Source of the DNA: Actinomycetota bacterium
GTDB lineage: Bacteria > Actinomycetota > Geothermincolia > Geothermincolales > RBG-13-55-18
Assembly (NCBI GenBank): GCA_028697145.1
Contig: JAQVFR010000018.1
Coordinates: forward strand, 1-60,979
Direction: 5' to 3'
DNA length: 60,979 bases
Position numbers and translations under genes: made by a program. Positions 23,875 through 40,543 of this stretch are shown piece by piece. Below the pieces are notes generated by a model, which was not told the origin of the DNA, ran no database searches, and was given only the letters and a program-made list of their open reading frames with translations. The stretch's first letter is position 1, and each line of letters opens with the position of its first letter.

Positions 23875-25686
23875 TCAGGCTCCTTCCGCAGCCGTCTCGA
23901 CCGCCGTAGACGGCTCGTGTATCCTTGCTTGCGGCACTTCCACTCGTGCGGTCAACTGTCTGACCAGCTCCTCCTCGAGTTCGTCGAACCCTCCCAACTG
24001 GTCCTCGGGCATGAACTTCGCCCGGGCTATCTCTTCCTGTATGGGCAAATCCAACAATTCCTCCACGCCCCTCCCTTTCTCGAGTTCCTGGTTGGCCACG
24101 GCATGGAATCTCATGATCAACCTGAGGAGCAGGAACTGCTTGCGCAGCGAAGTGAAAGCGTCCGCGTCGTCGAAGGCATTCTGCTGCAGGAAGTCTTCCC
24201 GCAGGGATTTCGCCGTCTCCATGAGCAGTCTCTCCTGGTCCGAGAGGGCTTCCACGCCGATAAGACGCACGATCTCCTGCAACTCAGCCTCGCGCTGCAG
24301 GATGGACATGGCTTCCTCGCGCAACGCCGCGTATGTGGCGTCAACCTCGTCGCCCCAGTATTCCTCGGTCTGGTCAAGGTAGAGGCTGTAGCTGTTCATC
24401 CAGCTGATAGCGGGGAAATGACGGGCGAAGGCCAGGCGGTCTTCCAGGGCCCAGAAGACCTTGACCACGCGCAGGGTGGCCTGGGTCACCGGCTCGGAGA
24501 GGTCGCCGCCGGGCGGGGATACCGACCCGATGGAACAGATCGACCCCTCCCTGCGGTCCTTGCCCAGGCAGACCACACGCCCCGACCTCTCGTAGAAGGC
24601 CGCCAGGCGCGTCCCCAGGTAGGCGGGGTAGCCCTCCTCGCCGGGCATCTCCTCCAGGCGCCCGGAGATCTCCCGCAGGGCCTCCGCCCAGCGGGAGGTC
24701 GAGTCGGCCTGCAGGGTCACGTCGTACCCCATGTCGCGGTAGTATTCCGCCAGGGTTATGCCCGTATAGACCGACGCCTCGCGGGCGGCCACCGGCATGT
24801 TGGAGGTGTTGGCGATGAGTACGGTGCGCAGCATCAGCGGTTCGCCCGAGTAGGGGTCGGTAAGCTCGGGGAATTCCTGCAGCACGTCGGTCATCTCGTT
24901 TCCCCGCTCCCCGCAACCCACGAAGATCACGATCTGCGAATTGGCCCATTTCGCTATGGCGTGCTGGAGCACGGTCTTGCCTGAACCGAAGGGCCCCGGC
25001 ACGCACGCCGTGCCCCCCTTGGCGATGGGGAAGAAGGTATCGACGATGCGCTGCCCGGTGACCAGGGGCTCAACGGGAGGCCTCTTCTCCACGTACAGTC
25101 GCGCCTTGCGCACCGGCCACTTCTGCATCATGCTCACCTGCACATCGCCACCCCCGCTATCCACCACCGCAATCGTGTCCTCGACGGTGAATTCTCCCTC
25201 GCGTATATGGGTGATCTTGCCCTCGACGCCCGCCGGCACCATGATGCGATGTGTGATTACCTTGGTCTCCGGCACCGTGCCCAGGACATCCCCGGGCTCC
25301 ACGGCGTCCCCCACTTTCACCAGCGCACGGAAATTCCATTTGCGCGTGCGCGACAGTCCCGGCTCTTCCACGCCGCGGGTGATATAATTGCCATATTTAT
25401 CCATAATAGTGTCGAGGGGCCTCTGTACTCCGTCATAGATGGAAGTAAGCAGGCCCGGCCCCAGCTCCACGCTCAGCGGCTCCCCGGTGCTGATCACCAC
25501 GTCGCCCGGCCCGATGCCTGAGGTCTCCTCGTAGACCTGTATGGAGGCGCGGTCGCCGCGCAGCTCGATGATCTCTCCCATCAGCCGGTCTTCACCCACC
25601 TTTACCAGGTCGTACATCTTGGGATCCGGGAGACCACTGGCGACGACCAGCGGGCCTGCCACCTTTACCACGTAGCCCTCTTTCAT
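23875..25686 (-). CDS. atpA: V/A-type ATPase catalytic subunit A
   Basis: 603 aa from ATG 25686 (an upstream in-frame extension lacks a ribosome site, whereas GAGGAG lies 6 bases before this ATG). The Walker [12 protein letters not shown] has Lys237. The catalytic-glutamate segment [15 protein letters not shown] and the non-homologous bulge region at about 110-190 are typical of V/A-type A subunits and absent from F-type beta. [17 protein letters not shown] is a further family block. It performs the ATP hydrolysis or synthesis step coupled to ion flow through the I/K membrane part. Operon position between F and B is the common bacterial/archaeal order. Confidence 0.96.
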
Positions 25687-25754
25687 TCCTTGCTCCTCAC
25701 CTCTGTTCTCTCTCTCGCGGCCGGCTCTCACGGTGGACCGCGCGCCGCGGGCGG

Positions 25755-26087
25755 CTATTCCTCGTTTTGCCCCTCTATCACGGACCCCAGTGCCTTCTCC
25801 ACCCTCTTCTTGATGCCGGCCCTGCCCAGGCCGATAGAGCCGCTTACGGCTGGTATCGCCAGCACCACCGGCAGGTCCTCCAGGGCTGGGAAGTCCGGCA
25901 CCCTCTCCAGCAGGACCTCGTAAACGGGCTCGGTGATCATGACCACAGCGTAACGCTCACGCGGCAGCGCTTCCCACACCGCCGGCCCGTCCTGGGGCGA
26001 TGCGACGACGTAGGAGTCCACCCCCACGGCTTTGAAACCCGCCACCGAGGTGAAGCCTCCTATCATCGCCAGTTTCATCTCGTCCAC
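25755..26087 (-). CDS. atpF: V/A-type ATPase subunit F
   Basis: 110 aa, a Rossmann-like small subunit that binds the rotor subunit D. MKLAMIGGFTSVAGFKAVGV and YAVVMITEPVYEVL are characteristic. The start is GTG at 26087; an in-frame ATG lies three codons later. Position between C and A agrees with the usual operon. The C-terminal tail VEKALGSVIEGQNEE is the mobile end that in other systems regulates rotation. Confidence 0.92.
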   Translation of the reverse strand: MDEMKLAMIGGFTSVAGFKAVGVDSYVVASPQDGPAVWEALPRERYAVVMITEPVYEVLLERVPDFPALEDLPVVLAIPAVSGSIGLGRAGIKKRVEKALGSVIEGQNEE

Positions 26088-26123
26088 GCTTTTCTTTTCC
26101 TCCGTTCCACGGACGCACCGGCG

Positions 26124-27236
26124 TCAATCTATGTACAGTTTCCTCAGCGATCTGTCTATGGCATCGGGCGGGATATTATGGAGCTTGGCGATGAGGATCA
26201 TCCGCACTATCAGCACCTCGTTTTCGCGCGCCCGCAGGTATGCGAAGATGGGCTCCACACCAACCGAGATCCTCTTCATCCCGCGCACCATGTCCATGAG
26301 CTGGTCCTCGCCCTTGCGGTCGAAATCGGTGAGCCTCACCACCTGGTCCTCGCTCTCCGCGATCTCCATCAGTCTGGAATAATAGATATTCGCCTCCAGC
26401 TTCCTCGCCATCATCTCCGGGGGGTCCCCGAAGAGGTCCAGGAGGTTGACGGCGGGGACGAATCCCCCCCTGACGATCATGGCGTCCAGGAACTCCCTCT
26501 CCTTCGACAGCAGGCGCGCCCTGATCACCAGCTTGAGGTTTGCGAGGTCGATGGAAGCACGCGCGAAATCGATGATGAACGGGCTGTCCTCCCGCCCGGC
26601 CAGGAACAGCCGGTAAGCGAGGTAGTGCTTTTCCACCAGCGTATCCAGTTCCTGCGGCGAGGTCCGCTGAACCGCCTCTTCCATGGCCTCCCTGTAGGGC
26701 GAGGGCATCGCGGCGGGATTCTCCACTCCCCTCCGCAGTGCATCCAGTCCCACCATGCCCAGCCCTTCCAGCAGGCCCTGCGGCTCCTTTTCCTCCATGG
26801 CGGCCTTGAGCAATACCTTGAGGTTGTGAAAATCGTAACGGCAGAGGAAGAACTCCATTATGAGGGAGCCCCTGGGCAGGGCTTCCTCCATCGAGGCGTA
26901 GACATCGCGAAGGTAAGCGGTGAGCCCCTCGTCTACTTCCAGCGCCAGCGTGGCGCCGGCCAGGTAGTCCCCCACGGGGATCTCGTCGAGGATGTTGAGG
27001 GCACTCTCGAAATCGGCCTCGACCAGTCTCTCGAGGCGCTGGGTATTAAGCATCTTCGTCTCCAGCACCCGGATCCTGCCTACGGCATAGCCGTAGCGCG
27101 TGACGTCACTGAAGGGCTTTATACGCTTGCGGTCGATGCTGAGGAAAGGGGGCAGCTTCATCACTTTTCCCTCCCGCAAGGCAGGGGAAGCGCCTGCCTT
27201 GACGGGATTGATGCCCGCTGCTCCCGTTCCGCTCAT
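26124..27236 (-). CDS. atpC: V/A-type ATPase subunit C
   Basis: 370 aa, homologous to bacterial/archaeal AtpC and eukaryotic subunit d. It is the funnel-shaped adaptor joining the rotor D/F to the membrane K ring. Recognised by YGYAVGRIRVLETKML near residue 45, its all-helical three-fold repeat and operon position. The first 25 residues are a loose extension. Its ATG overlaps the E-subunit stop by 4 bases, so the two are translationally coupled. Confidence 0.92.
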   Translation of the reverse strand: MSGTGAAGINPVKAGASPALREGKVMKLPPFLSIDRKRIKPFSDVTRYGYAVGRIRVLETKMLNTQRLERLVEADFESALNILDEIPVGDYLAGATLALEVDEGLTAYLRDVYASMEEALPRGSLIMEFFLCRYDFHNLKVLLKAAMEEKEPQGLLEGLGMVGLDALRRGVENPAAMPSPYREAMEEAVQRTSPQELDTLVEKHYLAYRLFLAGREDSPFIIDFARASIDLANLKLVIRARLLSKEREFLDAMIVRGGFVPAVNLLDLFGDPPEMMARKLEANIYYSRLMEIAESEDQVVRLTDFDRKGEDQLMDMVRGMKRISVGVEPIFAYLRARENEVLIVRMILIAKLHNIPPDAIDRSLRKLYID

Positions 27237-27856
27237 CTGCTGGCACCCCTCACGTCCACCTCACCGAAGAGCATCTTCAGCACCTGCTCCTCGTGGCGGT
27301 CCCTTACCTCGCGCATGAGGGTCTCGAGCGAGAGGTTGTTGACGAAGTTGCCGCTCCTGAGCATAACGCCACGGCTGAACCCCGCCTCCTCCGCGGACAG
27401 GCTCAAGGCCGTCTCGCCGCCCCTTTCCTTTATGGCCTCGTTTATCTCCTCCAGCAGCCCGTCGGCCAGCAGACGCCGGTCGTATGGTGCGGCGACTATC
27501 TCCTCCGGCTTCCCGGATACGTTGTTCACGATGGTGCGTTTCAGCCAGGCGCGGTAGCGCTCCTCCGGCAGGTCCTCGAACAGGCGCATGGCCTCCGTGA
27601 AAGCCTCCTCGAACAGCTTGTCCTGGGCGGAGAGGAAGGCGGCGCGGCTCTCCGCCAGGGCTTCGCTCATGATCTTGGTCCTCTCCCTCCTGCCCCGTTC
27701 GCGGAAAGAAGCCCGGATGGCCTCCGCCGCGCGGCGGGCCTCCTCCCTGCCCTCCTCCATGATGCGCTCCACCTCGGCCTTCGCGGTGTCGACGATTCCG
27801 CGCCCTTCCTCCCGGGCGTCCAGCTCGATCTTCTCCAGCAGTCTCTCCAGGGACAT
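27233..27856 (-). CDS. atpE: V/A-type ATPase subunit E
   Basis: 207 aa, peripheral-stalk subunit. Residues 1-110 are a long charged helix with heptad character (EARRAAEAIRASFRERGRRE), and the C-terminal 90 residues form the head-binding globular domain. Its partner in the stalk should be the 110-aa coiled-coil subunit at the start of the operon. Spaced 36 bases from the K gene. No odd features. Confidence 0.93.
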   Translation of the reverse strand: MSLERLLEKIELDAREEGRGIVDTAKAEVERIMEEGREEARRAAEAIRASFRERGRRERTKIMSEALAESRAAFLSAQDKLFEEAFTEAMRLFEDLPEERYRAWLKRTIVNNVSGKPEEIVAAPYDRRLLADGLLEEINEAIKERGGETALSLSAEEAGFSRGVMLRSGNFVNNLSLETLMREVRDRHEEQVLKMLFGEVDVRGASR

Positions 27857-27892: not shown

Positions 27893-28405
27893 TCAGCTTG
27901 CCAGTTTCGATATCTCGGGCGAGATAACGATGAAGAACATGAGGATGGTGACGATGAGGGAGAGCACGGCATAGGTCTCAACCAGGGCGGGGAGCACCAG
28001 CGAGCGCCCCATCTCCTCGCGCCGCTTGGCCACCATCCCCGCCGCCCCGGCCGCGGTCAACCCCTGGTAGGCGCCGGTGACGAAGCACACGAAGGCCACC
28101 GGCAGACAGGCCAGGAAGATCTGGAAACCCAGTGCACCGGGCAGGGCGGCCCAGCCCGCGCTGGGTTCCATGATGAATATGACCAGTACCCCCGTGATAA
28201 AGCCGTATATGCCCTGCGTGCCCGGGATGACCACCAGGGGCAGCAGGGGACCGAAGCGCTCCGGCATCTCCGTGAGAATGCCTCCCGCCACGTTGGCGAC
28301 GTAGGTGATGCCCATGCCGGAGCCGGCGCCCCCCCCGATCACCGCAACCGCCGCCCCCAGCAGGGCCCAGTGCAGGCCGGACAAACCTCCAAATGCTTCA
28401 ACCAT
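27893..28405 (-). CDS. atpK: V/A-type ATPase ring subunit K (double-hairpin c subunit)
   Basis: 170 aa with four membrane helices, that is two fused hairpins, as in the Enterococcus hirae Na+-ATPase ring. Only helix 4 has the ion-binding carboxylate, Glu143 in PALVETYAVL; the matching place in helix 2 is Gln64 in PGTQGIYGF. By manual alignment Thr63, Gln64, Gln114 (GAYQGL) and Glu143 match the residues that hold Na+ in E. hirae NtpK (T64, Q65, Q110, E139). A Na+-translocating ring is therefore likely (inference). A GAGGAGGTCAGC ribosome site precedes the ATG. Confidence 0.94.
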   Translation of the reverse strand: MVEAFGGLSGLHWALLGAAVAVIGGGAGSGMGITYVANVAGGILTEMPERFGPLLPLVVIPGTQGIYGFITGVLVIFIMEPSAGWAALPGALGFQIFLACLPVAFVCFVTGAYQGLTAAGAAGMVAKRREEMGRSLVLPALVETYAVLSLIVTILMFFIVISPEISKLAS

Positions 28406-28419
28406 GCTGACCTCCTCTA

Positions 28420-30414
28420 TTACTTATCTATCACGGTCTTGCGCGTCTCCAGGGCGAGGGGTGTGAACGGCACCCCGCCGTCCTCGTAGAACTTGCCGAA
28501 GAACTCCACGTACTGCAGCCTCAGGGGATGCACGAAAGCGCTGAGAAAACTCACGGCCATGTTGAAGATATGGCCCCCCAGGAGTATGACCAGGAGGGCT
28601 ATTATCCCCAGGACGGGTATCCCCCACACCAGGCTGGCCATGATGTTGACCACCATGCCTATGGCGATGGTGGCCAGTCCCAGGGCGTAGAGGCGCAGGT
28701 AGGAAGCCACGTCGCCGATGGTGCTGGCGAAGAGGCCGTAGAAGTTGTAAAGGCCCCCGAAGAACTTCCCCGCCAGGTTCTTGCTCTTGACGTTGGACAG
28801 GAGGATCACCGATGCTACCCCAGCCGCGGCGATATATATTCCCGCCTGGCCGAGGGGCTTCACGCCGATGCCGAAACCGATGGCGGCAACGGCGATCCCG
28901 AGCCAGAACAGGAGCGTGGTGCCCTGCTCGCACAATCCGATCCACAGAGAATTATGCTTGATGTTGTCCCGCATCTCGATGGCCACGCCGATGGAGATAT
29001 GGATGAGCCCCAGGGCAAGGCAAATGATCATGAAGGGTATCGGCTCGTACAGCAGGTCCATGGTGCCCGGGAATTTCATGAAAGCGGGGAGGGATTTCCC
29101 CTCGACGCCGAGGTAGCCATCTATGCCGAAATAGCCGCGTGTGATCACTCCCATAAATATTGAGGCCAGGCCGCAATACATGAAAAGGCGCAGGAACCTC
29201 CTGACGTTCTCGCTCACGTCCAGTTTCTTCAGCGCCAGCCAGAAAGCGCCTGCCATGATCAGCCCGTAGCCCACGTCGCCGATGCACATGCCGAAGAACA
29301 ATATGAAGAAGGGGGCCACGAAGGGGGTGGGGTCCGTCTCCTCGTGGTTGGGGATGCCGAAGAGTTCGATGAGGGTCTCGGCGGGGCGGATGCGGCGGCG
29401 GTTGACCATGAGGGTGGGCGGCTCGTCGCCATCTTCCGGCGGGGAGAAGACCACATCGGTGCTCGTTCCGAGGGTCTCGATCTCCTCGTGCACTTCCTCG
29501 GTGCGGCTCTCCTCGATCCATCCCTCCAGGGCCACCACGCTGCGCGTGTGCACGAAGCGCCTCTTTACCTCTTCCTTGGCGAGCTGGTTGTGCAGGAAGT
29601 CGTTCAAGGCCAGGACCTGTGGCTTGAGGGGCAGCTTGCCCCTTATGCCCTCCTCGACCCTGGACCTGTTCTCCATTTCGGCCTCGAGTTCCGCCCTGGA
29701 TCTGCTCATCTCCTCGGCGACGGTCCCCGCCTTTCCCTCCAGCCGCGCTGTTTCGAAGCCGTATTCAGCGGAAATGGTGTCGAATTCCTCCAGGTCCTCC
29801 CGGTGCACTATCACAGCTACGTACACCCTGTCCCTCTCGCGGCCGGCCTCCTCACGGGTCGAACGGGGACAGCGGGAATCCACTTCCTTTTCCCATGCCG
29901 CGAAGGCGGCGGCACTGGCGATGAGCGGCCTGAAGGACGCGCTTTCGAGACCGTAAGCCTCGCCCAGGGGGCAGTCCAGCCCTTCCCAGGGCAGCATCGC
30001 ATCGATGTCTTCCTCCAGCGCGGTTACCGCGCTCTCGATCCGTCTGAGCTCGATGTCCAGTGCCTCGAGCTCGCGGTATGCGGACTCCAAATCGAAATCC
30101 CGCTCTATCTCAAGAAATTCATCGAGACCGAGGTGCACGCGCTCCTTGAGAAATCCCGAGACGAGCCCGCCCTTGGCGTCCTCGAGCCTCTCGAGCAGAT
30201 CGATGATGAAATCCGTCCTGGCGATGGAGAGGCGCAGGCCCCTTGTCTCGGGCTCGAACGGGACGTGATAGGCCCGCAGTTCCTCGTCTTCCACGGACGC
30301 GGAGGCGACGTCGTTCACGTGCACGGCTCCCAGGCCGTGCAGCCGGTCCACCAGTTCCTCCCTCATGGCCCGGGGGGCCAGTATGGAGACCTTGGTCATC
30401 CTCGCAACGGACAT
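28420..30414 (-). CDS. atpI: V/A-type ATPase subunit I (a subunit)
   Basis: 664 aa. The soluble N-terminal half (1-330) contains coiled coils (LEALDIELRRIESAVTALEE), and the C-terminal half has seven or eight membrane helices. Arg574 in YLRLYALGLATIAIG is the conserved arginine that faces the ring carboxylate and releases the ion. FVAPFFILFFGMCIGDVGYG marks the start of the membrane part. It forms the ion half-channels with the K ring. ATG 30414 has GGGAG 6 bases upstream. Length is normal for bacterial and archaeal I subunits. Confidence 0.95.
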   Translation of the reverse strand: MSVARMTKVSILAPRAMREELVDRLHGLGAVHVNDVASASVEDEELRAYHVPFEPETRGLRLSIARTDFIIDLLERLEDAKGGLVSGFLKERVHLGLDEFLEIERDFDLESAYRELEALDIELRRIESAVTALEEDIDAMLPWEGLDCPLGEAYGLESASFRPLIASAAAFAAWEKEVDSRCPRSTREEAGRERDRVYVAVIVHREDLEEFDTISAEYGFETARLEGKAGTVAEEMSRSRAELEAEMENRSRVEEGIRGKLPLKPQVLALNDFLHNQLAKEEVKRRFVHTRSVVALEGWIEESRTEEVHEEIETLGTSTDVVFSPPEDGDEPPTLMVNRRRIRPAETLIELFGIPNHEETDPTPFVAPFFILFFGMCIGDVGYGLIMAGAFWLALKKLDVSENVRRFLRLFMYCGLASIFMGVITRGYFGIDGYLGVEGKSLPAFMKFPGTMDLLYEPIPFMIICLALGLIHISIGVAIEMRDNIKHNSLWIGLCEQGTTLLFWLGIAVAAIGFGIGVKPLGQAGIYIAAAGVASVILLSNVKSKNLAGKFFGGLYNFYGLFASTIGDVASYLRLYALGLATIAIGMVVNIMASLVWGIPVLGIIALLVILLGGHIFNMAVSFLSAFVHPLRLQYVEFFGKFYEDGGVPFTPLALETRKTVIDK

Positions 30415-30444: not shown

Positions 30445-30777
30445 CTAATCGCCTTCCTCCAACCTCTCCACTAGAAAGGAAACGGCGTCTTTTCGCCTTT
30501 CCACCACCACGGCCAGCAATCTCATCCTGTCGTACATGTATTCTACCCGGAGCTCCTCGGCCTCTCTCGCACCGTTCTCGACGATCTCGCGCATCTCTAT
30601 CTCGCCTTCCTCCCGGGCCTTCTCCTCCTCCTCCCGCTTGAGCTTGTCGACCTCGGCCTGAGCGGCGGCGATGGATTCCTCGGCCATCTTGCGGTAATAG
30701 TCGATGGCCTGCTCGCTCTTGATCTCGGCCTCCCTGACCAGCCCCAGTTTCTCAGCCATCGAAGTCATCGCTCTCAT
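30445..30777 (-). CDS. V/A-type ATPase peripheral-stalk subunit H/G
   Basis: 110 aa, almost wholly charged helix with heptads (SIAAAQAEVDKLKREEEEKA), typical of AhaH/subunit G. It should pair with subunit E as a right-handed coiled coil that holds the head still. It is the first gene of the operon, behind a promoter-like site at 30861-30866. ATG 30777 follows GGAGG closely (2-base gap); ATG 30768 is a possible alternative. Confidence 0.85.
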   Translation of the reverse strand: MRAMTSMAEKLGLVREAEIKSEQAIDYYRKMAEESIAAAQAEVDKLKREEEEKAREEGEIEMREIVENGAREAEELRVEYMYDRMRLLAVVVERRKDAVSFLVERLEEGD

Positions 30778-30991: not shown

Positions 30992-31639
30992 TCAATCGGT
31001 CAGCACCCGTTTCAGGTCTGCCTCTTTCTCCGGCTCGGTAACCGCTATGATCGTGTCTCCGGGCTGAAGGGTCGACCCCCCCTGCGGGATGATGACCTCC
31101 TCGCCCCTGACTATTGATACCAGCACGCAGCCCCGGGGGAGCCCCAGGTCGCGCAGCGGTACCTCGCAGGAGCGGCAGCGGTCCTCGGGAAGGTCCAGCT
31201 CCACTACTGCCAGCTTGCCCTTTTTCAAAGTGTGCAGGGTTATGATGTCGCCTACCGTGGTGCGTTCCTCTATAAGCTCGGCGATGACCGTGGTGCTGGA
31301 TATGGCATCGACGCCCAGCTTGTTGAAGATAGGCTCGTTCTTGGGGTTGTTTACCCTTGCTACCGTGCGCGGCACCTGGAAATAGGTCTTTGCCAGCTGG
31401 CAGGCGACGAGGTTGTCGTCATCGTCCCCGGTGACGGCGGCGAAGACGTCCGATTCCCCGACTTCTGCTTCCTCCTGGTAACGCAGGTCGCAGCCATCTC
31501 CGTGGATCACCACCGCTGAAGTAGTGGCCGCAAGGCGCTCGCACAGTTCCTTGCTGCGCTCTATCACCGCCACGCTGTGGCCCTTATCGTCCAGCGCATC
31601 GGCCAGGAACGCCCCGACCTTACCGCCGCCCATGATCAC
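30992..31639 (-). CDS. TrkA-family K+ channel/transporter regulator (RCK), copy 4
   Basis: 215 aa: N-terminal Rossmann NAD-binding RCK_N (MGGGKVGAFLADALDDKGHS, GDGCD, VTGDDDDNLV) and C-terminal RCK_C (about 135-215). RCK proteins bind NAD(H), ATP/ADP or c-di-AMP and gate K+ transporters such as TrkH or KtrB. The start is uncertain: the first in-frame codon usable here is GTG 31639, and a stop codon lies 5 codons upstream, so the first strand is unusually short. Last of four successive RCK genes, 66 bases after copy 3. No membrane partner gene is in the window. Confidence 0.88.
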   Translation of the reverse strand: MIMGGGKVGAFLADALDDKGHSVAVIERSKELCERLAATTSAVVIHGDGCDLRYQEEAEVGESDVFAAVTGDDDDNLVACQLAKTYFQVPRTVARVNNPKNEPIFNKLGVDAISSTTVIAELIEERTTVGDIITLHTLKKGKLAVVELDLPEDRCRSCEVPLRDLGLPRGCVLVSIVRGEEVIIPQGGSTLQPGDTIIAVTEPEKEADLKRVLTD

Positions 31640-31705
31640 GATCCTGATGGCTTATTCACCCGCCTTTCGTCCTCTGGCATGACACTCATAATACCGCATA
31701 TGCGG

Positions 31706-33118
31706 TCATGAGGCGGCCATACCCTCGCGCTTCGCCCTTATCCTGAAGGCCTGTCCCCCCTCCACCATCCTCCTTACCCGGCGTTCCCGTCCGGCGAGCA
31801 CCGCCGCGATTATCCTGTCCCCGCGGTGCATGGTGGTCCCCTTGGTGGCCACCGCGGTGCGGCCCTGGTGGGAGACCAGGCCGACCCGCAGCAGCTCCTC
31901 CCGCTCCAGCTTGCTCACCTGCTTGCCGGAGAATCGATGCGGGCACTCGAACTCCGCCAGCAGGACTTGGTTGTTGGCCGCCCACGCCAGTATCTTCATC
32001 CTGTCGCTCACCAGCCTCTGCATGAACTGTTCGGCAAGGATGACGGTGCCGCATATATAATCTATATCCAGCGCCTGGAACGTCTTATCCTTGTCGGGGT
32101 TGAAAAGCCTGGCGAACACCTTCCCGGTATCGTAAATGCTCCTGGCCACCTCCGCGGCCATGAGATTGGTGTTGTCGTAGTTGGTCAAAGCGGCGAAAAC
32201 GTCTGCCTCCTCGATGCCCGCTCTCTCGAGGGTCTCGAGATCGAAGGCCACTCCCTCATGCGCCTCACCCTGAAACGTCTTGCTTAATCTGTCGAACGAG
32301 TTCCTGTCCTTGTCGATCACGGTTACCTGGAAACCGTCGAGGGAGAGCATCTCCGAGAGCTGCGCCCCCACCCGTCCGCATCCGGCCACGATCACCCGCC
32401 ACCCCTGCCTGCCGCGCCGGGTTTCGACCGCCGCCGGTCCGCCCGCAACCCCGCTGCGCATGGGCCGCCCGAGCCCGGCGGCCATGATCTTTTCCATGTA
32501 CCGGCGGTTGCTGGTTTCCGCCGCCAGGATCAGGCGGTCTCCCCGCGCAAGCCGCGTGTCGCGCGAGAAGAACACCGGCAGCCCGCCCCTCTTCAACGCC
32601 AGCAATCTGCCGTCTCCCGGACTCCTCAGGTCGCTTACCGCCATCCCCTCTCTGTCCGCTCCCACTTCCACCTCGAGGACCTGCAGGCCTCCACCGAAAT
32701 CGGCGTGCACCAGGGTCCCCCTTGCCGTGACCGCGCGGTGGAAGATCTCGGCCAGCACGGTGCTCCCGCAGATATAGTCGATGCCCATGGTGCGGTAGGT
32801 CGCCTCCTTGTCGGGGTTATACACCCTGGCCGTCACCATCGGCACCCCGAAGATGCTGGCCGCGACCTCCGCGGCCATGAGATTGGTGTTGTCGTAGTTG
32901 GTTATGGCGACAAAGGCGTCAGTGCTCTCGATCCCCGCTTCCTTGAGCAGGGCCTCATCGAAGGCTATGCCCGTGAGGGTAACGCCGTTGAAGGACATCC
33001 CCAGGCGGTGAAAGGCCTGCGCGTCCCGGTCGATGATAACGACGTTATGGCCCTCGTTTGAAAGCAAGAGGGCCAGCTGCGAGCCCACCCTTCCACAGCC
33101 TGCGATTATGACCTGCAT
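31706..33118 (-). CDS. TrkA-type protein with two RCK units, copy 3
   Basis: 470 aa, the length of E. coli TrkA, made of two RCK_N-RCK_C units. Rossmann motifs are AGCGRVGSQLALLLSNEG (about 6-23) and AGCGRVGAQLSEMLSLDG (about 245-262). Both halves keep the TNYDNTNLMAAEVA block, showing an internal duplication. A charged linker of about 25 residues with GPAAVETRRGRQGWR joins them. It should gate a K+ uptake system as part of a cytoplasmic ring. Start ATG 33118, 13 bases after copy 2. Confidence 0.92.
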   Translation of the reverse strand: MQVIIAGCGRVGSQLALLLSNEGHNVVIIDRDAQAFHRLGMSFNGVTLTGIAFDEALLKEAGIESTDAFVAITNYDNTNLMAAEVAASIFGVPMVTARVYNPDKEATYRTMGIDYICGSTVLAEIFHRAVTARGTLVHADFGGGLQVLEVEVGADREGMAVSDLRSPGDGRLLALKRGGLPVFFSRDTRLARGDRLILAAETSNRRYMEKIMAAGLGRPMRSGVAGGPAAVETRRGRQGWRVIVAGCGRVGAQLSEMLSLDGFQVTVIDKDRNSFDRLSKTFQGEAHEGVAFDLETLERAGIEEADVFAALTNYDNTNLMAAEVARSIYDTGKVFARLFNPDKDKTFQALDIDYICGTVILAEQFMQRLVSDRMKILAWAANNQVLLAEFECPHRFSGKQVSKLEREELLRVGLVSHQGRTAVATKGTTMHRGDRIIAAVLAGRERRVRRMVEGGQAFRIRAKREGMAAS

Positions 33119-33131
33119 GACATCCCGGTCC

Positions 33132-33794
33132 TCAATCCAGGCCTAATACGCCTCTGAGTATGTCGACCTTATCCGGATCGGTAACGAAAAGGACTTTGTC
33201 CCCGGCCATGAGCGTGAGGTCGCCCCTGGGTATGAGATTGCTGCTCTCGCGCAGGACGGTGGCTACCAGCGTCTCTTCCGGCAGGGACATGTCCTTGATG
33301 GCCTTTCCAACCACCGGGCTTCCCGCGTCGAGCTGCACCTCCTCTATCACCAGTCTTTCGCGACGCAGCTTGAGCAGGGTGACCATCTCCCCCAGGGTCA
33401 GCTCCTCCCGCACCATCTGAACGATGATGGAGGCGCTGCACACCGCCTCGTCCACGCCCCAGTCCGCGGTGAATAACCACTCGTTCTTGGGATTGTTCAC
33501 CCGCGCAAAGACGAGGGGCACCCCGTATTCGAACTTGGACAGGTACGAGATCACCAGGTTGTCCTCGTCGTCCCCGGTGACAGCGGCCACCACGTCCGCC
33601 CCCGCGACTCTGGCCGCATCCAGCACCGAGGGCTCGCAGGCGTCACCGTGGAGGATGTCCGCTTCGGGGAACTTCTCTTTCAGCTCCCCCACTCTCTCCA
33701 GGCGCTTTTCCACCACCACCACCTGGTGATCGTCACGCAGGGAAACGAGCATATGAAGCCCGACCATGCCTCCGCCCAGCACTATGATGCGCAT
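33132..33794 (-). CDS. TrkA-family RCK protein, copy 2
   Basis: 220 aa, single RCK_N (RIIVLGGGMVGLHMLVSL, HGDACEPSVLDAA, AVTGDDEDNLV) plus RCK_C. ATG 33794 is preferred over ATG 33800 because the GAGGGG site sits directly against the first. It begins 10 bases after the stop of copy 1. The GGGMVG and GDDEDNLV motifs indicate nucleotide binding is kept. Confidence 0.9.
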   Translation of the reverse strand: MRIIVLGGGMVGLHMLVSLRDDHQVVVVEKRLERVGELKEKFPEADILHGDACEPSVLDAARVAGADVVAAVTGDDEDNLVISYLSKFEYGVPLVFARVNNPKNEWLFTADWGVDEAVCSASIIVQMVREELTLGEMVTLLKLRRERLVIEEVQLDAGSPVVGKAIKDMSLPEETLVATVLRESSNLIPRGDLTLMAGDKVLFVTDPDKVDILRGVLGLD

Positions 33795-33804
33795 GTCCAT
33801 CCCC

Positions 33805-34455
33805 TCACTTCAGCCCCAGCAGGCGCTCGAGCTTTCCCTGGCTTTCCCTGGCGACCGCTATGTATAGTATGTCTCCACCCTTGAAGACCGTACCCTGCGT
33901 CGCCATTTGCGCGCTGGCCCCGCGCACGATGCAGACCACCTGCACCTCCATGGGCACATTGAGGTCGGCCGCGCTCCTTCCTGTCAGCTGCGACGGCAGC
34001 TCAAGCCTCACCAGGTCCACTTCGCCGTTCCCGAACTGGTACTGGCTGTCGAGCTCCCCGTGGGAGAGGTAGCTGAGCATGCGGTGTCCCGCCCAGGCCA
34101 CGCTGGCGATGGTGGGGATATTCAAGCGGCGATATATCTCCGCGCGGCGCGGATCATAGATGCGGGTAATGACCCTGGGGACGCGGAAATGCTCCTTGGC
34201 GAGGCGAGCGCTGACGATGTTGCTGTTGTCGCCGCTGGTCACCGAGGCAAAGGCGTCCGCCCTGTCGATGCCGGCCTCAATCAGGGCGTCGTGGTCGAAG
34301 ACCACCCCTCTCACCTTCCTTCCCGAGAACCCCTCCCACAGGTTCTCGAAGGACTCCGGGTCCTTGTCGATGACGGCCACGGAATGCCCCTCGCGCTCCA
34401 GCATGTAGGCAAGGTATGAGCCGACCCTTCCGCACCCGCCTATGACCACGTGCAT
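33805..34455 (-). CDS. TrkA-family RCK protein, copy 1
   Basis: 216 aa from ATG 34455 (HVVIGGCGRVGSYLAYMLER starts right after it; longer in-frame sequence upstream lacks family similarity). RCK_N is followed by an RCK_C of divergent sequence near 130-210. Rather than the GDDDDN loop it has TSGDNSNIVSARLA. It contains AGHRMLSYLSHGELDSQYQF, unlike its siblings. First of four RCK genes, 149 bases downstream of the P-type ATPase gene, with which it may share a transcript. Confidence 0.88.
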   Translation of the reverse strand: MHVVIGGCGRVGSYLAYMLEREGHSVAVIDKDPESFENLWEGFSGRKVRGVVFDHDALIEAGIDRADAFASVTSGDNSNIVSARLAKEHFRVPRVITRIYDPRRAEIYRRLNIPTIASVAWAGHRMLSYLSHGELDSQYQFGNGEVDLVRLELPSQLTGRSAADLNVPMEVQVVCIVRGASAQMATQGTVFKGGDILYIAVARESQGKLERLLGLK

Positions 34456-34604
34456 TCTCTCACCCCCAACGTCGCGGGAACCATGTCCGCGGGGCCAAGT
34501 TCCATGTTCAATTCTCCACCTCACCAGCGTCTCCAACCGGATCGTCCGGTTCCCTAAAACGATAGTAGCACCTATGGCGCGCAAACCACAGGAACATGTG
34601 GACC

Positions 34605-37394
34605 TCACCCCTCTCGACCTTTTTTGCGCCGCTTCAGGTAGCTGCGCAGCATGAGCTTACGGATCTCGTCCGCCACCAGGCAGATGGGGATGAACGGCAC
34701 CAGGAACAGCCAGTCGGACCAGGCTATGGGCGCGGTCTCGAAGGCTTTGTTGAGGAAGGGCACGTAGACTATCAGCACCTGCAGGGACAGTTCGGTGGCG
34801 ATGCCCAGGAGATAGAGGCGGTTGCTGAGAAAGCCCACCTTGAAGATGGACTCCAGGTTGGTGCGGCAGGCGAAACCGTTCCCGATCTGGGTCATGACGA
34901 TCCCGGTGAGCGACATGGTCGTCGCCTTGACGTATATGATCGGGTCGGCTTCCTTGATCCTCCACAGCTCCTCGCCCCATTTCCAGCCGAACACGTAAAG
35001 ATAGCCCAGCATGCATACCAGGGCCTGCAGGGGCCCGAGGAAACCGTAAGCGCGCAGCAATACCCTCATGTTCAGCAACTTCTCCTGGCTGGAGCGGGGT
35101 GGGCGCGACATGATGCCCGGCTCCGGCCTCTCCGTACCCAGGGCCAGCGCCGGGAGCAGATCGGTCCCAAGGTCGATGGCCAGGATCTGGATGATGGTCA
35201 GGGGCAGCGGGATCTTGAACATGACGAAGAGGATGAAGGGCACGATCTCCGGGATATTGGACGCCAGGATGTAGGTGATGAACCTGCGGATGTTGTCGAA
35301 GATGGCACGGCCCTCCTCCACCGCGGCCACGATGGAGGCGAAGTTGTCGTCCACCAGTATCATCTCCGCCGCCTCCCTGGCCACGTCCGTGCCGGTGATG
35401 CCCATGGCCACGCCGATGTCCGCGGCCTTGAGGGCGGGGGCGTCGTTGACGCCGTCGCCGGTCATGGCCACCACCTCCCCCATGCCCTTGAGCACCTGGG
35501 CGATGCGCATCTTGTGCTCGGGGGAGACGCGCGCGAAGAGGACTTCCTCGCCTGCGAGATGAGAGGACAGCTCCTCGTCTGACATGCTCTCGAGGTCGGG
35601 ACCGGTTATGATGCGGGCCTGGCCCTCCACCAGGCCAATGCGCCTGGCGATGGATTCGGCCGTCAGCCCGTAATCCCCGGTGATCATGATCACCCTGATG
35701 CCCGCGGTGTGGCACTTCCCGATGGCCTCCTCCACCTCGGGACGCGGCGGATCCATCATGGCGGCAAGGCCGGCGAAGGTGAGGTCCATCTCGGTGGCTT
35801 CGATCTCGTAGCGCTTGAATTCCGGCGGAAGTTCGCGGAAGGCCAGGGCCAGGACGCGCAGGGCGGAGCGTGCATAAGCGTCGTTTGCGCCCCTGATACG
35901 GTCCCTGTCCTCCGGTCGCATCTCCCTGACTCCATCCGCGGTGAGGATATGCGAGCAGCGCTCCAGGACCACGTTGGGGGCGCCCTTGCAGTACGCGGTC
36001 CTGCCCTGATCTTCCTCGCATATGACCGTCATCATCTTGCGCGTGGAGTCGAAGGGGAGTTCGGCGACGCGTCTGCTCTCCTCCGCGGCCACGGCGGACC
36101 CCACCCCGCCCTTCTCTCCCAGCACCAGCAGCGCGCCCTCGGTGGGGTCGCCGATGATCTTGTACGACCCCTCCTTATCCCCTCGGGCCAGGCGCGAACT
36201 GTTGCAGAGCACGGCCGTCTTCAAGGTCGTCTTCAACTTCGTCATCTCCTGCGCGGAGAGCTTTCTCTGTCTGCCGCCGCTGCCGTTCCCGGCGTGGAGG
36301 AATTTTCCCTCCGGCGCATAGCCGACCCCGGAAACGGACACCTCCATCCAGGGCGTCCACAGGCTGCGCACCGTCATCTCGTTCTGGGTGAGTGTGCCGG
36401 TCTTGTCGGTGCAGATGACCGTGGTGGAGCCGAGGGTCTCCACGCTGGAGAGTTTCTTGACCAAGGCGTTGCGCTTTGCCATGCGCTGGGTGGCCATGGC
36501 CAGTGACAGGGTTACCGTCGGCAGCAGTCCCTCGGGCACGTTGGCCACGATGATGCCGATGGCGAAGATCATGTTATCGGCAAAAGGCAGTTTCACCACG
36601 AACTGTCCCAGGAGGAAGAAGAGCACACCCAGGCCCAGAGCGATGACCGCCACGAACCTGGTTATCCTTGCCATCTGCAGCTGGATGGGCGATTCCTCCT
36701 CCTCGACCGCCTGGGTCATCGCCGCTATCTTCCCAAACTCCGTGTTCATCCCCGTGGCGAAGGCGAGTGCCCGGCCGGAACCGATGGCCACCGCGGTGCC
36801 CGTGAACACCAGGTTCAGGCGGTCGGTCAGGGAGACGTCCTCCTCAAGGACTGGGTTGGCATTGCGCCGCACCGGCTCGGACTCCCCGGTGAGGGCGGAG
36901 TTGTTGGTGCGCAACTCGGCGCTGCTGATAAGGCGCGCGTCCGCGGATATATGGTCACCTTCCCTGAGGACCATGAGGTCGCCCGGTACCAGGTGGGCGG
37001 CCTCGACCTCCATCTCCTCTCCGTCCCGTATCACCGTGGCCATGGGCGGGAGCAACTTCTGCAGGGCCTCGGTGGCCTTCTCCGCCTTGTACTCCTGGAC
37101 AAAGGTGAAGATGGCGTTGATGAAGATGACGGCGATGATGGCGTACCCCAGGGCGGCCTGGTCGGCGATGAAGGAGAGGACGCCGCCGACCCACAGCAGT
37201 ATGGCGAAGAAGTGCGTGAAGTGGGAGACGAACTTCTTCCACAGGGGGATGCCCTTCATCTTGGTTATCTCGTTGGGGCCGTAGCGCTCCAGGCGGGCCC
37301 TGGCCTCTTCCGCGCTCAATCCCTGGGGGGATGTCTCCAGCAGCTCGTATACCTCTTCGGCGTTGAGCCTGTGTATTTCCGCGATTTCCCGCAT
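34605..37394 (-). CDS. P-type cation ATPase resembling the Na+,K+-ATPase alpha subunit
   Basis: 929 aa, type II P-ATPase with about ten membrane helices. TGES lies in the actuator domain, and Asp330 in ICTDKTGTLTQ is phosphorylated; TGDGVNDAPALK is the hinge. The ion site matches animal Na+,K+-ATPase rather than Ca2+ pumps: VANVPEGLL (Glu288), YILASNIPEI (Tyr708, Ser712, Asn713, Glu716) and IDLGTD (Asp741, Asp745), all at the same spacings as E327, Y771, S775, N776, E779, D804 and D808. The site-III aspartate (D926) is replaced by Asn in TQIGNGFAC. No beta-subunit gene is nearby. Na+ extrusion and/or K+ uptake is inferred. RCK genes follow. ATG 37394 has AGAGGT upstream. Confidence 0.92.
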   Translation of the reverse strand: MREIAEIHRLNAEEVYELLETSPQGLSAEEARARLERYGPNEITKMKGIPLWKKFVSHFTHFFAILLWVGGVLSFIADQAALGYAIIAVIFINAIFTFVQEYKAEKATEALQKLLPPMATVIRDGEEMEVEAAHLVPGDLMVLREGDHISADARLISSAELRTNNSALTGESEPVRRNANPVLEEDVSLTDRLNLVFTGTAVAIGSGRALAFATGMNTEFGKIAAMTQAVEEEESPIQLQMARITRFVAVIALGLGVLFFLLGQFVVKLPFADNMIFAIGIIVANVPEGLLPTVTLSLAMATQRMAKRNALVKKLSSVETLGSTTVICTDKTGTLTQNEMTVRSLWTPWMEVSVSGVGYAPEGKFLHAGNGSGGRQRKLSAQEMTKLKTTLKTAVLCNSSRLARGDKEGSYKIIGDPTEGALLVLGEKGGVGSAVAAEESRRVAELPFDSTRKMMTVICEEDQGRTAYCKGAPNVVLERCSHILTADGVREMRPEDRDRIRGANDAYARSALRVLALAFRELPPEFKRYEIEATEMDLTFAGLAAMMDPPRPEVEEAIGKCHTAGIRVIMITGDYGLTAESIARRIGLVEGQARIITGPDLESMSDEELSSHLAGEEVLFARVSPEHKMRIAQVLKGMGEVVAMTGDGVNDAPALKAADIGVAMGITGTDVAREAAEMILVDDNFASIVAAVEEGRAIFDNIRRFITYILASNIPEIVPFILFVMFKIPLPLTIIQILAIDLGTDLLPALALGTERPEPGIMSRPPRSSQEKLLNMRVLLRAYGFLGPLQALVCMLGYLYVFGWKWGEELWRIKEADPIIYVKATTMSLTGIVMTQIGNGFACRTNLESIFKVGFLSNRLYLLGIATELSLQVLIVYVPFLNKAFETAPIAWSDWLFLVPFIPICLVADEIRKLMLRSYLKRRKKGREG

Positions 37395-37829: not shown

Positions 37830-38942
37830 TCAGAAGGCCGGCTGCAGGGTAAGCTGCGGATCGCGCCCGCTCGCCCTGCGCCGGAAGCGCGCCAGGTCGG
37901 TAAAGGCCTCCAGGCGCGTGGCCACGCCCGCCCTTCCGGTCATCTCGTCGATGACCAGGGAGAGCACCGGTATCCCCAGGTCGCGGGATACCAGGGGCAG
38001 GATGCTCTTGGCGATGGTCTCGGGCATGCACGTGAAGGGCATGAGCTGCACCACCCCGTCGAATCCAAGGCGATTGTAGAGCACCGTGTCGCCGATACTA
38101 AAAATCCCCTCGCCCCCCACCTTGTGGGTGAGATACGGATTGGCCAGGCGTTCCGACGCGTGCTCGTGATGCCCCAGCACCGGCCTTTCTCCCGAGGGGC
38201 GCAGCCAGTCGGTGAGGTAGATGTTGCGCTCGACGAAGGCGCCCAGGTCCCCCAACTGTTCCTCGACGTTGAGGTTGAAGAAGGGCTCCAGCACCAGGTA
38301 GAACTCCCCCACGATGCCGATCTTTATCTCCTCCCGCTCGCCGCGGGGGACGGAGTGCAGCAGCGCGAAGGCCTCCTCCTCCACCCTGGCGAGGTCGGCG
38401 TAGGTGCCCGCATCCCACACCAGGTCGTAGCAGCGCTTCATAGCCGCCGTAGTGGCGCCGCGCTCGCGATCCAGATAGCGCTGGTGCAGGACCTGCCGCT
38501 CCAGGCGGTCGATGAGATATGCCTTGCTCAAGGCGAACTTGATGGCGCGGTAGAGCGAGATCCAGGACTTCCCCTGCTTGAGGCGGTTCAGCCTGCGCAG
38601 GGTCGCGGGTATCTTGGAGGGCTCGAACTCGAGGGGGACCATCTCGAACTCGTAACCGGCATCGGCCAGGATGCGCCGCTGCGTCTCGGCGTAGAAACCG
38701 AAGCGGCAGGGCCCGCGCCCGGCGACCATGATCAGCGTATCCGCCCCATTCTCGATGGCCTCGATGAAATTGCCCAGGGTGGTCTTGAGGGGGAAACAGG
38801 CGAATTCCGGCCCGTGGCGTGCTCCCAGCTCCAGGGTGCGCTGCGAATTGGGGGGCGGCAGAACGTATTCCACGCCCATCTCCTCGAAGACGCTGCCCAT
38901 GACGAACTCCAGGCTGCCCATGTGCGGCCAGCTTATCTTCAT
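37830..38942 (-). CDS. HgdB/CoA-activase-like protein (2-hydroxyacyl-CoA dehydratase superfamily)
   Basis: 370 aa from ATG 38942, which overlaps the stop of the upstream gene by 4 bases; a longer frame upstream overlaps that gene and is rejected. Family blocks: ACFPLKTTLGNFIEAIENGA, MVAGRGPCRFGFYAETQRRI, VGEFYLVLEPFFN, LMPFTCMPETIAKSIL and the closing DEMTGRAGVATRLEAFTDL. Cysteines in FACFP, GPCRFG and FTCMPE are candidates for a [4Fe-4S] cluster. It corresponds to the C-terminal part of large acyl-CoA dehydratase activase-type proteins. The ATP-binding BadF/HgdC part is not in the window. Substrate and role are unknown. Confidence 0.8.
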   Translation of the reverse strand: MKISWPHMGSLEFVMGSVFEEMGVEYVLPPPNSQRTLELGARHGPEFACFPLKTTLGNFIEAIENGADTLIMVAGRGPCRFGFYAETQRRILADAGYEFEMVPLEFEPSKIPATLRRLNRLKQGKSWISLYRAIKFALSKAYLIDRLERQVLHQRYLDRERGATTAAMKRCYDLVWDAGTYADLARVEEEAFALLHSVPRGEREEIKIGIVGEFYLVLEPFFNLNVEEQLGDLGAFVERNIYLTDWLRPSGERPVLGHHEHASERLANPYLTHKVGGEGIFSIGDTVLYNRLGFDGVVQLMPFTCMPETIAKSILPLVSRDLGIPVLSLVIDEMTGRAGVATRLEAFTDLARFRRRASGRDPQLTLQPAF

Positions 38943-39928
38943 ACCGCCACCTTCTCCAGCGCCGCTTCCACCCGGTTCTTCTTGCGCCGCAGCATGTCTA
39001 CGAAGGCCTCGATGCGCGTGAGGAACCCCCCCTCGCCGGTGTGCTCGTCCATGATCAGGGTGAGCATGGGCACGTTTCCCATGGCCTTGTTCTCCTGTTC
39101 GCACAGGACGCGGACGATAGAGTCCGGGCCGCAGGGGAAGGAGATCATGAAGATGATGCCGTCCACCAGTTTTCTCCTGGTGCAGGCCAGGATGGCCCCC
39201 GCGACCTCCTGCTCGTAGCTCCAGTAGATGTCCTTGGGCAGGCGCTTCAGTTCCTCGTCCCGCATCTTCTCCGGCACCATATCCGCGGTCACCACGTCCA
39301 CCCCCATGGAGCCCAGGCGCTCGAGCAGGGACATGGTGGTGAAGGTATCGTAAACGTTATAGTGGTGGCCGATGACCCCGATGCGCAGCTCCCTGCCCTC
39401 GCATAGCATGCGGTCCGACTCCCCCTTCAGGGCTCCCTTGTGGTCGAGGCCGAGGGTCAGGCGCTCGAGGTAGAGGCGGTGATCGCGCCAGGCGGTTATC
39501 CCGGCGCCGATAATGCGCATGGGGTTGGAGGAGAACAGGCGCCCCAGCGAATACACGGCGCGGTAATTGTGCCAGAGGCCTGATTGGAAATCGATGGTAG
39601 GTGATATCACGGGCAGGGCGTCCCCTACCGCCGCCCGCGCCATGTCCGGCAGCCCGAGCATCTTCGGGCAGGTGTGGGTCCTCTTCTTCACGCTCACCAG
39701 GCGAGGCACGAACAGGGCGTCAACCTCGTCTTTGAGCGCCAGCACGTGCCCGTAGAAGACCTTGACCGGCAGGCAGCTCTCGTTCTCCGCCTTGCTCACG
39801 CCCGAGGTGAGGATGGAGCGGGTCGTCTCCCCCGACTCCACCACCTCCGCCCCCAGGGCTCGCAGGAAGGAGTTCCACAGTCTGCCGTAACGGTAATAGA
39901 GCAGCCCGCCCGGGATGCCGACTTTCAT
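38939..39928 (-). CDS. DUF2229/CoA-activase-like protein
   Basis: 329 aa, the partner of the following gene. It begins MKVGIPGGLLYYRYGRLWNS, and NESCLPVKVFYGHVLALKDE, VDALFVPRL and THTCPKMLGLPD are the DUF2229 hallmarks. The end (MDEHTGEGGFLTRIEAFVDM) parallels that of the next protein. Cysteines in NESCLP, HTCPK and SFPCGPDS may bind a cluster. In many anaerobes these modules are fused with a BadF ATPase in one protein; here they are split into two overlapping genes behind an acyl carrier protein gene. Confidence 0.8.
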   Translation of the reverse strand: MKVGIPGGLLYYRYGRLWNSFLRALGAEVVESGETTRSILTSGVSKAENESCLPVKVFYGHVLALKDEVDALFVPRLVSVKKRTHTCPKMLGLPDMARAAVGDALPVISPTIDFQSGLWHNYRAVYSLGRLFSSNPMRIIGAGITAWRDHRLYLERLTLGLDHKGALKGESDRMLCEGRELRIGVIGHHYNVYDTFTTMSLLERLGSMGVDVVTADMVPEKMRDEELKRLPKDIYWSYEQEVAGAILACTRRKLVDGIIFMISFPCGPDSIVRVLCEQENKAMGNVPMLTLIMDEHTGEGGFLTRIEAFVDMLRRKKNRVEAALEKVAV

Positions 39929-39958
39929 ATTTATACCTTGCTTGCCGGCTCAGCCGGC

Positions 39959-40204
39959 TCAGGCGGCGGCCTTGCGCATGATCAGATCCACCGCGTCCCC
40001 CACGGTCTCGATTTCCGCCGCTTCCTCGTCCGACACTTTGAACCCGTAACGCTGTTCCATCTCCAGGAGCAGCTCCACCAGGTCCAGGGAATCGGCTTCC
40101 AGGTCGTCCTCGAAGTGCGATTCCTCCGATATCTCCTCCTCCGGCAGCTCCAGCGCCTCCGCCAGGGCCGTCCGGACTATAGCCAGCACTTCTGTCCGGT
40201 CCAT
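39959..40204 (-). CDS. Acyl carrier protein
   Basis: 81 aa, acidic and four-helical. EADSLDLVELLLEME holds the serine (DSL) that takes 4'-phosphopantetheine. It carries acyl chains as thioesters for a synthase or modifying enzyme. Its place between the sigma-factor pair and two activase-like genes, with no fatty-acid synthesis genes around, suggests a specialised rather than housekeeping ACP (inference). Gap to the downstream activase is 30 bases. Confidence 0.93.
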   Translation of the reverse strand: MDRTEVLAIVRTALAEALELPEEEISEESHFEDDLEADSLDLVELLLEMEQRYGFKVSDEEAAEIETVGDAVDLIMRKAAA

Positions 40205-40228
40205 GCTCCCTCTCTGTTTTCCCGTTCC

Positions 40229-40543
40229 TCAGACTCCTACGGGCACGATCCTTCTCCGCAACAGGTGTTTCCTTATAGCATATGCCGCCACTCCGACGAA
40301 GGGAAGCGCGGAGAATATGGCACCGCCGATGATTATCCCCCTGTGGCCACCCTCCTCCCCGCCGATGCCTTCGTACCCGAAGAGTTCCCGGGCACCCATG
40401 CTCTCGCACAGCTCCTCCAGGCGGCTGGCGAAGCCCGGCTCCGGGTCCACCGGGCGAAGGCAGCTCTTCAGCAACCTCACCGTGTCCCTGTAGCGTGGTC
40501 TTATCCCGATCTCTCCGCTTCTCCTGGATTCCCTGTCGTTCAT
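40229..40543 (-). CDS. Small single-pass membrane protein next to an ECF sigma factor
   Basis: 104 aa with no family I recognise. A basic N-terminal half contains PEPGFASRLEELCESMG. A Gly-rich stretch and one hydrophobic helix follow (IIIGGAIFSALPFVGVAAYA, about residues 69-88), then a basic end (RKHLLRRR). The orientation looks cytoplasmic N-terminus, single span. Its ATG overlaps the sigma-factor stop (ATGA), so the two are coupled. By position it is the likely anti-sigma factor or membrane partner, but it lacks a zinc-binding HxxxCxxC motif. Confidence 0.65.
   Translation of the reverse strand: MNDRESRRSGEIGIRPRYRDTVRLLKSCLRPVDPEPGFASRLEELCESMGARELFGYEGIGGEEGGHRGIIIGGAIFSALPFVGVAAYAIRKHLLRRRIVPVGV

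Follow-up and report, generated by a model that had tools for sequence, protein, structure and literature searches.

A 60,979-nucleotide stretch of contig JAQVFR010000018.1 (hereafter the window), from an Actinomycetota genome of 2.98 Mb that is 97.6% complete, carries a run of four genes for RCK proteins, RCK1 to RCK4, behind a gene for a P-type ATPase that resembles the Na,K-ATPase. K+ channels and secondary transporters are the textbook targets of regulation by RCK domains. The array is, we think, probably the junction of two regulator modules: RCK3 and RCK4 would belong to a TrkH that has moved to the tig-clpX region, and RCK1 and RCK2 would form a two-subunit regulator dedicated to the adjacent pump. 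Beyond this we lean, with some caution, toward a heteromeric RCK ring that directly controls this primary pump, which would then be an adenine-nucleotide-gated Na+/K+ pump and, in some lineages, the main K+ uptake system. Because RCK1 and RCK2 travel with the pump as a three-gene unit, a linkage that extends through at least four phyla, the arrangement suggests that an animal-like ion pump is in bacteria under the control of an RCK regulator, a kind so far known from channels and secondary transporters only.

The RCK genes of the pump locus and their partners

An earlier note on this DNA, made from the letters alone, had described four co-directional RCK genes with five RCK units behind a Na,K-type pump, and the open reading frames and Pfam searches bear that description out. 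TrkA_N was found in all five units at 82-168 bits, against a Pfam cut-off of 23.8. TrkA_C exceeded its cut-off in RCK2, in the first unit of the double protein RCK3 and in RCK4, fell one bit under it in RCK1, and was not reported for any stretch of the second RCK3 unit.

Loci mapped in about 30 relatives revealed two recurring units: module A, consisting of the pump, RCK1 and RCK2 in the same order and direction, and module B, consisting of TrkH, RCK3 (a double gene or two single genes) and RCK4. The two modules are adjacent in four genomes (G003, G009, G019 and G020), are separated by about 120 kb in G021, and are found on different contigs in G018, G022, G026, G028 and G049. In several genomes of the family to which the window belongs (G000, G005, G007, G010, G011 and G014), RCK3 and RCK4 stand behind RCK2, and an RCK-free TrkH is found at tig-clpX. 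In three genomes (G002, G006 and G009) TrkH has its own RCK3 and RCK4, and there the pump-side copies are eroded, with RCK3 halved in G002 and missing in G006 and G009, while RCK1 and RCK2 are intact. This pattern of erosion indicates that RCK3 and RCK4 serve TrkH and that RCK1 and RCK2 do not. As a separate observation, an extra double-RCK gene of the RCK3 type abuts the pump directly upstream in G019 and G020 (L041 9238-10617 and L042 3176-4555).

The genome that contains the window has two tandem TrkH genes, located on contig C43 beside tig (the gene for trigger factor) and clpX, with no RCK gene beside them. The statement of the earlier note that no K+ channel subunit is present is thus correct for the stretch itself but not for the genome, and a genome without any channel subunit is ruled out. 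Searches of the same genome found no KimA-like permease, KUP or KdpA. Two other RCK units were found in it: a strong one in a 373-amino-acid open frame on C38, probably a separate channel, and, on C14, a weak unit. The RCK-unit trees place the two units of RCK3 (3A and 3B) and RCK4 in TrkH-linked clades. Since these clades adjoin TrkH in relatives, RCK3 and RCK4 most likely gate the relocated TrkH, an ordinary role. The arrangement is that of TrkH-TrkA and KtrAB systems, with RCK3 and RCK4 of the type found linked to TrkH in G003, G004, G009, G016 and G019-G021, except that TrkH is here unlinked and lies at tig-clpX.

Behind nearly every TrkH gene examined in the class we also observed a gene for an exported protein of about 200 amino acids with hydrophobic helices at its N and C termini. 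The protein adopts an OB-fold in a structural model (predicted local distance difference test score of 88), has OB-fold matches in PDB, belongs to no Pfam family above the cut-off, and is a candidate accessory subunit of TrkH. It was seen on C43 of the window's genome (L061, 6453-7058 and the 4105-4700 region) and at L174, L043, L046, L076, L041, L038, L032, L026, L027, L165, L170 and L058.

RCK1 and RCK2 have different relatives. Their clades hold only pump-linked RCK proteins and pairs linked to KimA-like permeases, save for a single pair that sits at the very start of a contig, and no member of either clade adjoins TrkH. Shimodaira-Hasegawa support was 97-98 for the RCK1-type clade and, in the two trees, 95 and 94 for the RCK2-type clade; the KimA-like identity of the permease rests on a match to PDB 6s3k (E 5e-123). 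Given this composition of the clades, the RCK1-RCK2 pair type is partnered either by the gene of a KimA-like symporter or by that of the Na,K-like pump. The permease-linked pairs, of the CeoB/CeoC type in Actinomycetota, thus share both the clades and the habit of adjoining a K+ transporter gene with the pair in the window, but their partner is a secondary transporter with 12 transmembrane segments of the APC/KUP superfamily, not a pump. We take them to correspond to CeoBC of Mycobacterium tuberculosis.

The earlier note had also raised the possibility that the array forms hetero-oligomeric rings with different ligands. That all five units make up one such array gating the distant TrkH would accord with genes that are adjacent and co-directional and with TrkH genes that have no RCK gene of their own. 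We nevertheless consider it very improbable: RCK1-RCK2 and RCK3-RCK4 are separate units in most relatives, they sort into different clades according to partner, and RCK3-RCK4 are part of the TrkH system. The proposal of a five-unit array therefore found no support.

The pump and the three-gene unit across phyla

The best match of the pump in PDB is the Na,K-ATPase alpha-3 subunit (E 9e-178), and it keeps the ion-site residues of that enzyme: E288 in M4; S712, N713 and E716 in M5; D741, T744 and D745 in M6; Q836 in M8; and E868 in M9. We take the counterparts in the Na,K-ATPase to be E327, S775, N776, E779, D804, T807, D808, Q923 and E954, respectively. E288, E716, D741 and Q836 are kept in all 53 of the 53 linked pumps, and the Ca2+-type outgroup differs at 741 (N), 836 (mostly E) and 868 (mostly S). 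The pump scored 676 bits with the curated Na,K/H,K model TIGR01106, whose cut-off is 946, and was also under the cut-off of the PMR1 model (679 versus 798). In view of the TIGR01106 score we refer to it, on the grounds of sequence, as Na,K-ATPase-like and not as a Na,K-ATPase. It departs from the Na,K-ATPase alpha subunit (P2C) in its length of 929 amino acids, in having N at the position of D926 and in the RCK genes behind it; moreover, no beta subunit gene was found near the pump, in a search that covered its neighbourhood and not the rest of the genome.

A scan with a pump alignment, taking one genome per species, yielded at least 80 loci, which are a sample. The order pump-RCK1-RCK2, which is also kept in relatives across class and phylum, was found in at least four phyla: Actinomycetota (including Olsenella and Collinsella), Bacillota (Thermoanaerobacterium, Bacillus marasmi, Paenibacillaceae and Clostridia), Chloroflexota (Flexilinea and Anaerolinea) and Thermodesulfobacteriota (Geomonas, Geobacteraceae and Desulfomicrobium). 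Gaps within the unit are often -4 to +2 bp, and a 4-bp overlap of pump and RCK1 is frequent. Among the genes that flank the unit we found no further conserved family, and a hidden conserved third partner in the operon was rejected on that account. Nor did we find riboswitches of the K+, Na+ or cyclic di-AMP (c-di-AMP) families near the operon in 13 linked loci.

In a tree of 104 pumps, taken from among the matches listed, the linked pumps formed one clade of 59 rows, 51 of them linked, six unlinked and two at contig ends. The RCK pair thus accompanies 51 of the 57 informative rows, two linked rows being duplicates of others. None of 500 label shuffles matched this clustering. One of the unlinked rows is the first of two tandem pump genes in G032, where a single RCK1-RCK2 pair follows the second (L053 5980-11601). 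A separate pair of linked pumps (L129 and L137) lies outside the main clade; these are of the Acidimicrobiaceae type, with an RCK1-RCK2 pair behind, and an independent gain is possible. Tree distances of the pump agree with those of RCK1 (r 0.85) and RCK2 (r 0.92), from which it follows that the three genes are passed on together, an agreement that is not in itself proof of interaction.

The distribution of other K+ transporters bears on whether the pair might instead share the operon merely as one of a set of K+/Na+ balance genes and gate a K+ transporter encoded elsewhere, such as TrkH, KUP or a KimA-like permease. The established targets of RCK proteins are indeed channels and secondary transporters, the nearest relatives of RCK1 and RCK2 adjoin KimA-like permeases, the window's genome has two TrkH genes, and Olsenella and Collinsella have KUP. 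However, TrkH was not found in 13 of the 26 surveyed genomes and metagenome-assembled genomes (MAGs), where the unit persists. Module A is present in G032 and G047, and the mapping of loci found no TrkH in either genome. In four genomes (G032, G064, G073 and G075) searches found no TrkH, KimA, KUP or KdpA, and, to judge from these absences, no recognisable K+ importer other than the pump was found in them. In Olsenella sp. An290 the searches found KUP but not TrkH, KimA or KdpA, and the pump operon accounts for the only two RCK units in its genome. Meanwhile, many carriers have a separate RCK3-RCK4 or KtrA-type gene that goes with TrkH, and in Flexilinea and an Acidimicrobiaceae MAG KimA has an additional RCK pair, apart from that of the pump. 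Gating of a transporter elsewhere thus seems to us unlikely, if worth keeping in mind.

Genes and features of the window

The features of the locus are collected in Table 1. The gaps of 10, 13 and 66 bases that the earlier note gave among the RCK genes are right for the starts it used. RCK1 starts at the ATG at 34455, RCK2 at the ATG at 33800 or 33794, RCK3 at 33118, and RCK4 either at the GTG at 31639 or, to judge from the upstream sequence and reading frame, at the ATC at 31648. The first beta strand of RCK4 lacks a usual start codon, and that ATC, which has a good ribosome site, could be the natural start or else the place of an assembly error. The two TrkA_N stretches of RCK3 have a Pfam E value of 9e-50.

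Table 1. Genes of the pump, RCK and V/A-type ATPase region, in window coordinates
Feature	Position	Strand	Basis
Na,K-ATPase-like P2-type pump, 929 amino acids	34605..37394	-	Pfam E1-E2_ATPase, Cation_ATPase_N, Cation_ATPase_C
RCK1, single RCK, pump-linked (CeoB-like) type	33805..34455	-	TrkA_N 82 bits; clade of pump-linked RCK1
RCK2, single RCK, pump-linked (CeoC-like) type	33132..33800	-	TrkA_N 82 bits, TrkA_C 51 bits; clade of pump-linked RCK2
RCK3, double RCK (units 3A, 3B), TrkH-linked type	31706..33118	-	two TrkA_N stretches; relatives' units adjoin TrkH
RCK4, single RCK, TrkH-linked type	30992..31639	-	TrkA_N 93 bits; TrkH-linked RCK4 clade
V/A-ATPase subunit H, first gene of downstream V-ATPase operon	30445..30777	-	NCBIfam AhaH, E 8e-5, under curated cut-off
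V/A-ATPase subunit I	28420..30414	-	Pfam V_ATPase_I
V/A-ATPase subunit K, sodium-type ion site	27893..28405	-	NCBIfam subunit K above cut-off; alignment to 2bl2
V/A-ATPase subunits E, C, F, A (operon continues)	23875..27856	-	open reading frames; subunit C by NCBIfam; relatives' gene order
V/A-ATPase open reading frames	27856-27233, 27236-26124, 26087-25755, 25731-23875	-	

The V/A-type ATPase operon, whose gene order is also found among the mapped loci of relatives, begins 214 bp past RCK4. An alignment showed that its subunit K keeps the PGTQGxYG, QG and VETYA motifs of the Na+ V-ATPase rotor of Enterococcus hirae (2bl2), including the equivalents of T64, Q65, Y68, Q110 and E139, with I in place of L61; for this comparison we used what we take to be the list of Na+ site residues of that rotor. 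These motifs are in keeping with a sodium-handling locus and liken the window to the Ntp Na+ V-ATPase locus of E. hirae. The ntp operon includes ntpJ, a gene of the KtrB type, and, unlike the locus in the window, is not known to contain a pump or RCK pair. TrkH lies directly upstream of the V-ATPase in G015, G016 and G022.

Upstream of the pump (window 37830-40400) are two genes resembling coenzyme A enzyme activases (DUF2229, HGD-D) and one for a sigma factor, which stay close to the pump or to the TrkH cluster in many relatives. No RNA families were found in the window.

Possible control of the pump by an RCK ring

How might RCK1 and RCK2 act on the pump? At the expense of ATP, the pump would move Na+ out of the cell and K+ into it. 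RCK1 and RCK2 would assemble as a mixed ring, perhaps with four of each, by analogy with TM1088A/B of Thermotoga maritima. The genes for those two small RCK proteins overlap, and their products form a two-subunit ring, a 4+4 octamer with AMP bound (PMC4380455). Both RCK1 and RCK2 match these proteins by sequence. The partner of TM1088 is the TrkH homologue TM1089, whereas here the adjoining conserved partner gene encodes a P-type ATPase. The ring is predicted to bind adenine nucleotides in a conserved Rossmann pocket of the form GxGxxG...D/E; the GxGxxG motif with its acidic residue is present in nearly all pump-linked RCK units. It may contact the cytosolic side of the pump and adjust the pump's activity to the energy state or the need for ions, in the manner of TrkA, which closes TrkH in the presence of ADP and opens it in that of ATP (PMC6987127). 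c-di-AMP was considered as a ligand and rejected, in that the signature of c-di-AMP-binding RCK_C domains, (I/L)(I/L)X2DX1RX5N(I/L)(I/L) (PMC10117811), gave no match in any of the five RCK groups.

Several considerations weigh against such control. Both the binding of RCK1 and RCK2 to the pump and its regulation by them are inferred. A ring acting on a pump thought to be monomeric would be a symmetry mismatch for which we know of no precedent. In the window itself 149 bp separate the pump from RCK1. The closest relatives of the pair are partnered with KimA-like permeases, and the pair is therefore not exclusive to pumps. Several of the genomes in which TrkH was not found are MAGs of unknown completeness, though G032 is 95% complete. 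Finally, five pumps of the main clade have no RCK gene in reach, namely those of Bifidobacterium tibiigranuli, Streptococcus ratti, a Wirthbacterium, a Planctomycete MAG and a Deltaproteobacterium MAG; in the genomes of B. tibiigranuli and S. ratti, the one or two RCK units adjoin TrkH. These five indicate that the pump can work without the pair, and hence that the pair is modulatory and not an obligate part of the pump.

Could the pair influence the pump indirectly, without forming a complex, for example as cytosolic sensors of nucleotides or redox state or by regulating expression? The evidence is one of linkage, and RCK domains are general nucleotide-binding folds, both of which would suit such a role. 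Against it, the frequent 4-bp overlaps of pump and RCK1 suggest coupled translation, which is typical of complexes, the RCK proteins have no DNA-binding domain in the Pfam scan, and characterised relatives either contact a membrane transporter, as TrkA does TrkH (PMC6987127), or are built to do so, as is TM1088 (PMC4380455). We accordingly attach little weight to indirect action and return to the RCK1-RCK2 ring on the pump.

RCK control of the pump had been put forward in the earlier note as an arrangement not known to have been described, and we too found no description of RCK or TrkA proteins with P-type ATPases in the open-access literature. The idea is strengthened for RCK1 and RCK2, whose unit with the pump is kept across phyla and persists where TrkH was not found, but not for RCK3 and RCK4, which belong to the TrkH system. 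The note had named as evidence to the contrary a TrkH locus lacking RCK genes together with an absence of pump-RCK linkage in relatives; such a TrkH locus does exist, but the linkage is strongly conserved.

If true, direct control of the pump by RCK1 and RCK2 would extend RCK regulation to primary active transport, through a conserved and dedicated pair on a P-type pump. In prokaryotes it would parallel the way in which accessory subunits regulate the Na,K-ATPase, and it would provide a clear system for experiments. It would also account for K+ uptake in bacteria that have neither TrkH nor another known K+ importer.

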